IMG/VR virus record: IMGVR_UViG_3300036818_000038 | Location: 1-24,684 of that record | Source: a virus | Strand: one strand, 5' to 3' | DNA length: 24,684 nucleotides | Shown: positions 11,852 to 14,499 of the stretch, piece by piece | Layout of the letters: each line of letters begins with the position of its first letter | Position numbering within the stretch: the first letter of the stretch is position 1 | Translations under genes and position numbers: made by a program | The notes under the pieces: model-generated | What the model saw: the letters and a program-made list of their open reading frames with translations, nothing else | The model's database searches: none | Told to the model about the DNA's origin: nothing

Positions 11852-12761
11852 CTAGAACAGGGCCGCCCGTATCCGGGCGAGCCGTATCCGGCCGTGCTCG
11901 ATCGCCTTCGGGTCGTTGTCCGCGAGGACGCAGGACAGCCCCTCGGCGGCGCACGCCTGCCCGGTCGGCCCGGTGCCGGCGAACGGGTCCAGCACGAGCC
12001 CGCCGGGCGGGGTGACGAGGCGGACCAGCCAGCGCATCAGGGTGACCGGCTTGACGCACGGCCAGCCGGTGCCGTCCGGCAGCCGGGTCCGCTCCGACCT
12101 GGGGGCTTTGGCGCAGGCTACGACGATGGGCTCATGGGCGGGCTTGAGCGCAGTCCCCCAGCCTTCCCAGCGGGCGGCGTCCTCGGTGGCCGGGGCGGTC
12201 TGCATCCCATTCGCCGTGAGCGCGTCCGGGTCGTCACGCCAAGGCCGATCCCAGCCCTCCGTATGCGAGCCGCCCCCCGGAGATGCCATGAGGACAGTCC
12301 TGCCGTCCGGTCGCATCTTCGGCCCGGAAGCTTCCCGCTCAGCTCCTGCTGCCTTGTCGATGGCCTTGGACACGTCCAGCGACTTCGGGAACCCCTGGCC
12401 GTAGACCCAGTGCAGGGCTGTCCCTGATCTCGAACCCGGCCAGCCGGATCGACAAGCCCATCAGGTCCGCGGTGCGCGGCGCGGCGAACGCGAGCAGGCA
12501 ACCGCCGGGCTTGAGCACCCGGTAGCACTCATCCCACGCGGCGGGCGGCGGGACGAACCGGTCCCACCTCGTGGACATGAAACCCCGGCCGTCCGGCACG
12601 AACGAGCGGGCACCGGCCAGCCACTCGGCCAGCGCCTTGATGACGACCTTCGGTTTCAGGTCGGCCAGGCCGTAGGGCGGGTCGGTCACTACCGCGTCCA
12701 CGGCGCCGGGGGGCAGCGGCAGCCGTGCCGCGTCAGCGCGGAGCAGGACGACCTCGGACAT
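11852..12761 (-). pseudogene. DNA methyltransferase broken by a single-base frameshift
   Basis: ATG at 12761 with GGGAG six bases upstream. The first frame (to about residue 115) carries the catalytic motif DPPY at 27-30 and YRVLKPGGCLLAF. It then runs into nonsense after GFEIRDS. Dropping one base from the GGG at 12415-12417 (minus-strand CCC) continues it as LHWVYGQGFPKSLDVSKAID, then TALKPAHEPIVVA and the S-adenosylmethionine-binding motif LDPFAGTGPTGQAC near the end, stop at 11852. Motif order (DPPY before FAGTG) indicates a beta-class amino-methyltransferase, DPPY being most usual for N6-adenine. Repaired length is about 302 residues, normal for the family. It lies in the accessory segment between HNH and tail genes and may have protected phage DNA from host restriction. 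As read it is inactive unless the indel is a sequencing error. Confidence 0.85.
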
Positions 12762-12772
12762 GCGTCTCCCAA

Positions 12773-12892
12773 ATGCGCGGAATTATGCGCGGAAAGTCCG
12801 CCGTAAGTCAGGCGGAACCGCAGGCCACAGCCATCTAGCCGGCTAACGGCGGGGACGTATATGCGCGGAAAGTCCGCGTAATACGCGCGGAA
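12773..12892. repeat. Intergenic cluster of ATGCGCGGAA repeats with dyads
   Basis: The intergenic region upstream of the methyltransferase holds ATGCGCGGAA at 12773-12782, 12785-12794 and 12861-12870, and a one-mismatch copy (ACGCGCGGAA) at 12883-12892. Two copies extend to the identical 18-mer TATGCGCGGAAAGTCCGC (12784-12801 and 12860-12877), which itself contains the dyad GCGGA-AAG-TCCGC. The region is more AT-rich than its surroundings. It may be an operator, promoter region or recombination site; no clear T-tract supports a terminator. Confidence 0.7.
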
Positions 12893-13306
12893 CTAGCCGA
12901 GGTGGCCGGTGAGCTGACCCGCCTGCAAGTGGCCGTGGTAGTAGCCGGGGGTGCCGGGTTCCCCGGCGGCGATCGACGGGGACACGGTCAGCGACGGCGG
13001 GTCGCGCGGGTCTCCGTCGCGGTGCCAGTGCCCGCCGCTGGTCGACGGCGCGTCGACCATCCAGTCAACCGGTTCCCCGGCCGGGCGGCTGTCCCGCCAG
13101 GTGTAGCGGCGCAGCCCGAGCTCCACCCGGCCGGCCCGCTCGAGCCAGAAGCACGGCCAGCCCACTAAGCCGGTTTCCTGTCCGTGGCAGCCCTGCGGGC
13201 ACGGCCGGAAGTTGGACGCCTGGTGCTCGCACTCGTACCGCAGCGGCTCGACATCGCCGCGGAACGTGGTGCGGCGGTCGGCATCGGCCGCGTACTCGTG
13301 CACCAC
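12893..13306 (-). CDS. Unknown Cys/His-containing protein, probably displaced gene remainder
   Basis: The convincing part begins near 13328, just after the HNH stop, and ends at TAG 12893. A GTG at 13306 gives 137 residues but has no well-placed ribosome site, so the start is uncertain; the frame upstream is a shadow inside the HNH gene. It opens PGRNPYVVHEYAADA, then has a metal-site-like stretch CEHQASNFRPCPQGC with further HGQETGLVGWPCFWLERAGR, RRYTWRDS and a Gly/His-rich end. The opening repeats the PGSNPYTVHEVA segment near the end of the gene on the other side of the HNH gene. The simplest reading is that it is the 3' part of that gene, separated by the HNH insertion. Function not recognised. 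Confidence 0.6.
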   Translation of the reverse strand: MVHEYAADADRRTTFRGDVEPLRYECEHQASNFRPCPQGCHGQETGLVGWPCFWLERAGRVELGLRRYTWRDSRPAGEPVDWMVDAPSTSGGHWHRDGDPRDPPSLTVSPSIAAGEPGTPGYYHGHLQAGQLTGHLG

Positions 13307-13324
13307 GTACGGGTTGCGGCCGGG
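13295..13324 (-). repeat. Imperfect repeat flanking HNH gene, copy B
   Basis: Encodes PGRNPYVVHE. It matches the copy at 13942-13971 (PGSNPYTVHE) at 8 of 10 residues and 22 of 30 bases in the same reading direction. The two copies bracket the HNH gene. Confidence 0.6.
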
Positions 13325-13325
13325 C

Positions 13326-13946
13326 TCAGTGCTCCTGCCCGGCGAGCGGGCACTTGTCCTTGTCGGACTTGGCCAGGTTGCAGGACCCGCACAGGGCCTG
13401 GAAGTCCGGCGGGTAGCCATTGCGCTTGAGCCAGGCGTAGAAGTCGCGGGAGCCCCGGCCGATTGAGCGTCGGTGGGCATTGCCGCCTCCGTTGATGTGG
13501 TCGATGGTGAGCAGCTGAGCATGGATGACGTGGCACCCCGGGCAGGCGCACCGGCCGCCGTATGCGGCGATGGCCTCCGCCCTCAGCTGCTCCCGCTTGG
13601 CGTTGCGCTGATCGCGCAGCTCCTGGCGGTGGGCCTCGAAATACCGGCCAGCGGCGGCCTTGCGCTGCTTGCTCCACGCCTTCGGGTCGGCGGCCTTCCG
13701 GGCGGCCTTGGCGGTAGCGTCCGCGCCGGGGTTCGCGCGGCGCCAGCCTGCCGCGCGCTGGCGGTTCCGGACAGCGCAGACCCAGTACCGCTTGCTGCGC
13801 GTGATCTCTACCCGGGCGCCGCACCCGCTGCACCAGGCCGTCGCGGCTTCCTCATCGACCTCACTGAGCCGGTGGTCCCTCGCTGCCGGGGTGGACCCGG
13901 TGTCCGCTGAAATCGGTGTCCACGTCCTCCCAGGTAGCAACCTCAT
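13326..13946 (-). CDS. HNH homing-type endonuclease
   Basis: 206 residues from the ATG at 13946, the only good in-frame start; this overlaps the upstream gene by 86 bases and has no strong ribosome site, so the true start is uncertain. A CxxC pair (39-42, WCSGCG) comes first, then a basic helical region, then the HNH core: YGGRCACPGC (129-138), LTIDHINGGG with Asp149-His150, FYAWLKRNGYPPDFQALCGSCN (Cys186, Cys189, Asn190), a well-known arrangement in phage homing endonucleases with paired zinc-binding Cys residues. Such enzymes cut DNA lacking their gene and so spread it between phages. It sits between two pieces that share a repeated segment, suggesting insertion into a pre-existing gene. 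Domain call is firm; homing activity is inferred. Confidence 0.85.
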   Translation of the reverse strand: MRLLPGRTWTPISADTGSTPAARDHRLSEVDEEAATAWCSGCGARVEITRSKRYWVCAVRNRQRAAGWRRANPGADATAKAARKAADPKAWSKQRKAAAGRYFEAHRQELRDQRNAKREQLRAEAIAAYGGRCACPGCHVIHAQLLTIDHINGGGNAHRRSIGRGSRDFYAWLKRNGYPPDFQALCGSCNLAKSDKDKCPLAGQEH

Positions 13947-14499
13947 GCACAGTGTACGGGTTACTACCTGGCTTGTGCACAGGCGCGAACGGCCGGGTGG
14001 TCCGCTCGGTCACGTGCTCACCGCTGGCGTCTACCCAGTCGCCGTGGTCGACGAGGGTGAAGTCTTCCATCCGCTCGTGCACGTCGACCAGGCCGAGCGT
14101 GTCGAACAGCCAGCGGACCCAGGTCGCGCAGTCGAATGTCGCCGGGGGCACCGGGAAGTAGTGGTGCACGGTCAGCGCCGCGCCGAGGGCGGCGGCGAGA
14201 TCCCCGGCCGCCGCGGTGACCGGGCCGGGAAGCTCGCCGCCGTGCTCGGCCAGCGCGGTGAGCAACTGCCGGGCGAGACGCTCCAGGTCATACGGGGCGT
14301 AGCTGTCGGGGCCGTGCCGGACGACTGTCAGGGTCAGGCCGCGGGATTCCCCCGTGTGCCGGCCGGGCTTGTCGCGCTGCAGGTCGTCCTCCAGCGTGAC
14401 CTGCCAGCCGAGGTGCCGCCGGTACTGCAGCCTGGCGACGGCGCCGGCTAGGGCCTCCGGGTACGGGGCCACCTGCCGCATCATGGGCTCAGCGGGCAT
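13861..14499 (-). CDS. Unknown protein of neck/tail junction, 3' end probably altered by HNH insertion
   Basis: 212 residues, ATG at 14499 with a G-rich AGGG ribosome site. No family recognised. It starts MPAEPMMRQVAPYPEALAGA, has RRHLGWQVTLEDDLQRD, a helical Ala-rich middle (DLERLARQLLTALAEHGG) and FDCATWVRWLFDTLGLVDVH. Its last 40 residues (PGSNPYTVHEVATWEDVDTD) use codons such as CCA, GGT, AGT, ACT, CAT, GTT and GCT, unlike the rest of the gene, and resemble the start of the protein beyond the HNH gene. The tail may therefore have arrived with the HNH insertion. It follows the gp10-like gene in the operon; a structural or neck role is only positional. Confidence 0.7.
   Translation of the reverse strand: MPAEPMMRQVAPYPEALAGAVARLQYRRHLGWQVTLEDDLQRDKPGRHTGESRGLTLTVVRHGPDSYAPYDLERLARQLLTALAEHGGELPGPVTAAAGDLAAALGAALTVHHYFPVPPATFDCATWVRWLFDTLGLVDVHERMEDFTLVDHGDWVDASGEHVTERTTRPFAPVHKPGSNPYTVHEVATWEDVDTDFSGHRVHPGSEGPPAQ
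13942..13971 (-). repeat. Imperfect repeat flanking HNH gene, copy A
   Basis: Encodes PGSNPYTVHE near the end of the upstream unknown gene, with unusually AT-rich third codon positions. It is the partner of the copy at 13295-13324. Confidence 0.6.

Follow-up and report, generated by a model that had tools for sequence, protein, structure and literature searches.

The window, that is the whole stretch of DNA analysed here, is the IMG/VR virus record IMGVR_UViG_3300036818_000038 (24 684 bases, GC content ∼72%). It contains a siphophage structural module, and most of its genes lie on the minus strand. Relatives of its major capsid gene occur in 265 phage-collection records, mainly from phages of Gordonia, Arthrobacter and Mycobacterium, and the host type of the virus is GC-rich bacteria. 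Between a neck gene and a gene assigned as tail terminator by its position, the minus strand reads in the following order: a complete gene belonging to a family of unknown function, here named UP, a frame for an HNH endonuclease and a downstream frame that ends at position 12893 (Table 1). Judged by third-position GC, coding extends over UP, over the HNH frame from about position 13860 and over the downstream frame from about position 13325.

Table 1. Features between the neck gene and the tail-terminator position of the window
Feature	Positions	Strand	Description
Neck gene	15003-14521		Bounds the locus on one side
UP	13861-14499	minus	Complete gene, 212 aa
UP tail module	13885-13974	minus	HKPG subtype; by profile and alignment
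32-bp repeat, upstream copy	13942-13973	minus
Hairpin	13930-13971	minus	Within the coding sequence of the UP tail; arms of 13 nt, loop of 16 nt
HNH endonuclease frame	13326-13946	minus	N-terminal zinc-ribbon-like segment; HNH motif in C-terminal half
32-bp repeat, downstream copy	13295-13326	minus	Directly after the HNH stop codon
Orphan tail module	13241-13324	minus	GPG subtype; by profile
CEHQASNFRPC tag	13199-13231	minus	After the orphan tail
DUF6527-like gene	12893-13165	minus	Probably starts at GTG 13165; shares the reading frame of the orphan tail
Tail-terminator-position gene	11835-11401		Bounds the locus on the other side; role inferred from position

The two copies of a 32-bp repeat flank the HNH gene and share 24 of 32 bases (BLASTN E-value 0.004); between positions 12700 and 15100 they form the only direct pair of 32-mers with at least 24 identities. 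The corresponding peptides had already been pointed out in the initial annotation, and both are present: PGSNPYTVHE close to the C-terminus of the 14499-13861 product and PGRNPYVVHE at the opening of the frame that follows the HNH stop codon.

UP matches phrog_1540 weakly, its mycobacteriophage relatives are 28% identical and many further relatives are contained in IMG/VR; a family search of GTDB genomes yielded no match. The structure model of UP (pLDDT 89.5) has a mycobacteriophage protein of unknown function as its sole structural match (Shandong1/TClif-like fold). We aligned UP with 55 IMG/VR relatives and found all 55 to be single, uninterrupted genes that end in one tail module. Two subtypes of this ending are observed: most of the family ends in PGxDPYxVxExxTDxDRRTSFRGExNP (GPG subtype), and L002, L010, L012, L013 and the more divergent L016 end in HKPGxDPYxVHQxASxEDxDTDFRGRRxHP (HKPG subtype). 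In none of these HKPG members does an HNH gene follow directly.

Tail profiles were built from the uninterrupted family genes of other phages (55 relatives). The end of UP (KPGSNPYTVHEVATWEDVDTDFSGHRVHPG) is recognized by the HKPG-type profile with an E-value of 1.6e-18 and the downstream tail (PGRNPYVVHEYAADADRRTTFRGDVEPL) by the GPG-type profile with an E-value of 1.7e-14; the rest of the window gives nothing near those two scores. As these E-values are far beyond chance, the two tails are true homologues, and together with the uniqueness of the pair between 12700 and 15100 they rule out a chance similarity. Uninterrupted relatives in the set that are without the HNH gene carry one copy of the segment only. 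The picture of one repeated gene end, from which the initial annotation started, holds.

A tree calculated from the gene bodies only places UP inside the HKPG group (support 99/92) and next to L012 and L010 (98/94). A tree-conflict test between the UP body and its adjacent end revealed no conflict: both fall into the HKPG clade. Since body and tail are congruent within this subclade, UP is not a hybrid; judging from its sequence it is a whole gene that is native in its subclade. It had been suggested that the local gene end came in with the inserted DNA as a version of its own; this is not supported, since body and tail are congruently HKPG, and HNH-free members share this ending. The proposal resembles the homing of fungal mORFs, which in the mtDNA of Glomus and Allomyces have produced hybrid genes of atp6, atp9, cox2 and nad3 (PMC3630166, citing Paquin et al. 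1994). By such homing the HNH gene would have been inserted into a resident gene together with a replacement C-terminus, which became fused to the resident body, and the native C-terminus would have been pushed downstream. The order of parts is indeed that of the mitochondrial hybrids, namely body, imported end, endonuclease and displaced end (PMC3630166), and the two ends are alike in protein and recoded in DNA. However, the body and the supposedly imported end are both of the HKPG subtype, so that the defining sign of different origin fails, the same end is native in relatives without the HNH gene and the displaced end is of another subtype than the body. We consider this course of events quite improbable, and a hybrid gene of the mORF type was rejected on the congruence of UP.

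The downstream frame (13306-12893) is composite: it consists of a family tail with a CEHQASNF tag (13324-13166) and, continuing in the same reading frame, a DUF6527-like gene. The orphan tail starts no more than 2 nt from the HNH stop codon and is 64% identical to the tails of L014, L017, L033 and L045; its best identities to endonuclease-free relatives are 64–69%, and a close relative was not found. The uninterrupted family gene of L044 ends alike, with a tail, then CEHQASNFTPCRICGA and a stop codon. Because the orphan tail is of a different subtype (GPG with a CEHQASNF tag, as in L044), it is not the original end of UP; its sequence identifies it as derived from another member of the UP family. 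The initial annotation had seen the displaced 3′ part of the interrupted gene here, which is correct in so far as the frame does start with a UP-family end, but this end is not UP's own. An uninterrupted protein joining both products of the window, as would be expected from that view, was not found when the downstream protein was compared with IMG/VR, phages and GTDB genomes. The tag itself (CEHQASNFxPC) was located at 3001-3150 in L044, 4136-4168 in L083 and 11549-11581 in L084 as well as at 13199-13231 of the window. CxxCG ends the tag in L044, L083 and L084, a pattern as if a small zinc-binding end piece had moved between genes.

The end of the DUF6527-like segment is 55% identical over 88 aa to a gene of L090, a backbone relative of the window (capsid 75%, neck 65%), whose gene has the equivalent position, flanked by the neck and tail-terminator genes, and is not preceded by a family tail. 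The protein from L090 is distantly homologous to one from L058, for which a match to DUF6527 was obtained (PF20137, E-value 8e-8). A Shine-Dalgarno-like AGGA lies ten bases upstream of GTG 13165, and this GTG aligns with the start in L090; therefore the orphan tail that precedes the DUF6527-like gene is probably a relic. Alternatively, the whole downstream frame could encode a working protein with the tail module and CEHQASNF as N-terminal domain, the neighbouring HNH gene being incidental. The frame contains no stop or frameshift, its third-position GC is 0.93 over 30 codons, and CEHQASNF is also the terminus of two unrelated proteins (L083 and L084), so that end pieces of this kind pass from gene to gene. 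Yet the module is C-terminal in every other find, the best start with an AGGA (GTG 13165) lies past it and the L090 homologue begins at the equivalent place. Moreover, only one of 50 leave-one-out family scores fails to exceed the score of the orphan module, a deficit to which its missing first residue may contribute. A working protein of this kind is thus rated as low as mORF-type homing.

The HNH protein contains the catalytic motif and zinc-binding cysteines: TIDHINGGG...H and CGSCN are conserved with the HNH protein of L016 and with phage HNH proteins. It matches phrog_1035 with an E-value of 1e-4, passes no cut-off of Pfam or NCBIfam and has no close relative in IMG/VR; a close allele free of the element was not found either. 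The structure model of the protein is poor (pLDDT 51). The only ATG of the frame, at 13946, is located inside UP, and a TTG is present at 13940. A group I intron or an intein was also considered and dismissed: Rfam gave no match near threshold, and the UP stop codon at 13861 precedes most of the HNH gene. Among the family loci examined, only the record of L089 has another family gene directly before HNH-type genes. There (L131, 1420-2829) the family gene is followed by two small genes, one with a Pfam HNH match and one that is HNH-like by its pattern of cysteines and histidines only. L016 has a related HNH gene on the opposite strand, at a distance of 1.5 kb from the family gene.

What occupies the interval between neck and tail terminator differs among backbone relatives. 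L090 has the DUF6527-like gene without UP, HNH gene or tail, L086 and L088 have no gene there and in L087 and L089 its place is taken by a haem peroxidase-like gene; the interval is therefore regarded as a cargo locus. The peroxidase-like genes extend over 10352-11986 in L087, identified by sequence likeness, and over 10909-12849 in L089 (An_peroxidase, E-value 6e-11). Further along the same interval, the window carries a DNA methyltransferase (12761-11852) in two overlapping frames (12761-12339 and 12373-11852), which reflects either a pseudogene with a frameshift or faulty assembly. The methyltransferase and the DUF6527-like gene are separated by a gap that contains a perfect 18-bp direct repeat, TATGCGCGGAAAGTCCGC, at 12784-12801 and 12860-12877.

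The two subtypes of tail could also go back to tandem paralogues, an HKPG gene and a GPG gene that lay side by side until the arrival of the HNH gene and a deletion removed the second body. Short tandem paralogues of the UP fold do exist beside the full family gene in L016 (5444-5752) and L064 (3694-4125), but these are without the tail module, and no locus with two tails was encountered among the family loci examined, HNH-free relatives included. We regard such a history as unlikely, if somewhat less so than the two alternatives discussed above.

The locus holds two homologous tails of different subtype, a UP gene that is not a hybrid, an HNH gene exactly between the tails and a DUF6527-like gene that recurs in L090. 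Our best reading is that this arrangement is a scar of gene shuffling between viruses and not a new kind of element. Specifically, a module of a complete HKPG-subtype UP gene and an HNH gene would have replaced the body of an older GPG family gene, leaving a scar of phage mosaicism; we give this version about an even chance. The DUF6527-like gene would be the native content of the locus, and in the ancestor a GPG-subtype gene of the UP family with a CEHQASNF tag would have stood ahead of it. The incoming module would then have displaced the body of the older gene with a break at the conserved PGxNPYxVHE segment, so that only its last 28 codons and the tag remained, in frame with the DUF6527-like gene. 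Cutting by the HNH endonuclease at the tail segment may have driven the exchange. Replacement is favoured because the tails are of different subtype, UP is congruent, the relatives are single-tailed and tail plus tag are intact in L044; the cargo character of the locus, the distance of at most 2 nt between HNH stop codon and orphan tail and the HNH-type neighbours in the record of L089 argue in the same direction. We infer the order of events from one genome. A phage with the presumed ancestral arrangement, in which the family gene precedes or is fused to the DUF6527-like gene, was not found; in L058 the two genes are adjacent in the opposite order.

The initial annotation had also noted A/T-ending codons in the upstream copy of the repeat. 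Third-position GC is indeed 0.42 over 12 codons of the UP tail versus 0.93 in the UP body, a decrease that no other of the 56 family members equals (mean 0.09, sd 0.14); in the downstream copy the value is 1.0. A hairpin has its arms, CCAGGTAGTAACC and GGTTGCTACCTGG, on these A/T codons; the arms form 12 Watson-Crick pairs and one G-U pair, and the loop contains ATG 13946, the only ATG of the HNH frame. Among random codings of the same protein with the codon usage of the window the pairing arises at a frequency of 1.5e-5, a value that overstates the case since the geometry was picked post hoc. In the HNH-free sister L012, 11 of 13 pairs are found with equal geometry (P = 0.017 with its own codon usage), and at three pairs both sides have changed between the two hairpins. 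The remaining 54 family members average ∼5 pairs and reach at most 8 of 13; conservation of the hairpin throughout the family is ruled out, as its geometry is matched by L012 only. A recoded flank that guards the carrier against its own endonuclease had been considered but finds no support, and the recurrence of the geometry in the HNH-free L012 argues against a guard tied to the HNH gene. A role in HNH expression is possible from the sequence because the only ATG of the HNH gene sits in the loop. That the hairpin is purpose-built, was maintained in the gene end by compensatory changes in the window and L012 and then came to serve a captured HNH gene as its start region appears very improbable to us; if true, one segment would end one protein and control the expression of a homing endonuclease.

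With mORFs the locus has in common an endonuclease gene flanked by two forms of the same gene end, which are similar at the protein level but differ in DNA and of which one is displaced; by this arrangement alone it looks like an mORF-type hybrid. However, mORFs leave a gene body fused to a foreign end whereas UP is wholly native to one subclade, and the nuclease is of the HNH type in a phage rather than LAGLIDADG or GIY-YIG in a mitochondrion. HEGs are known to occur at boundaries of genetic exchange between phages (PMC10448857). Like these, the HNH gene of the window is situated at a junction of sequences of different origin beside structural genes; unlike them, it is a single HNH gene with no demonstrated island or partner HEG, and its junction falls within the orphaned end of a gene. 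The same publication mentions a ribonucleotide reductase gene split by a free-standing HEG (PMC10448857). There, too, the endonuclease gene parts pieces that resemble one gene, but here UP is complete, the downstream piece stems from another family member and there are no working halves. By analogy, the locus is best read as one of the nuclease genes at phage exchange boundaries. It would then provide a clear example, at the resolution of gene segments, of an HNH gene placed exactly on the joint at which two members of one phage gene family were recombined. Such a joint can pass for a hybrid insertion of the mORF type, and the test for a shared history of body and end is applicable to other nuclease-flanked repeats.
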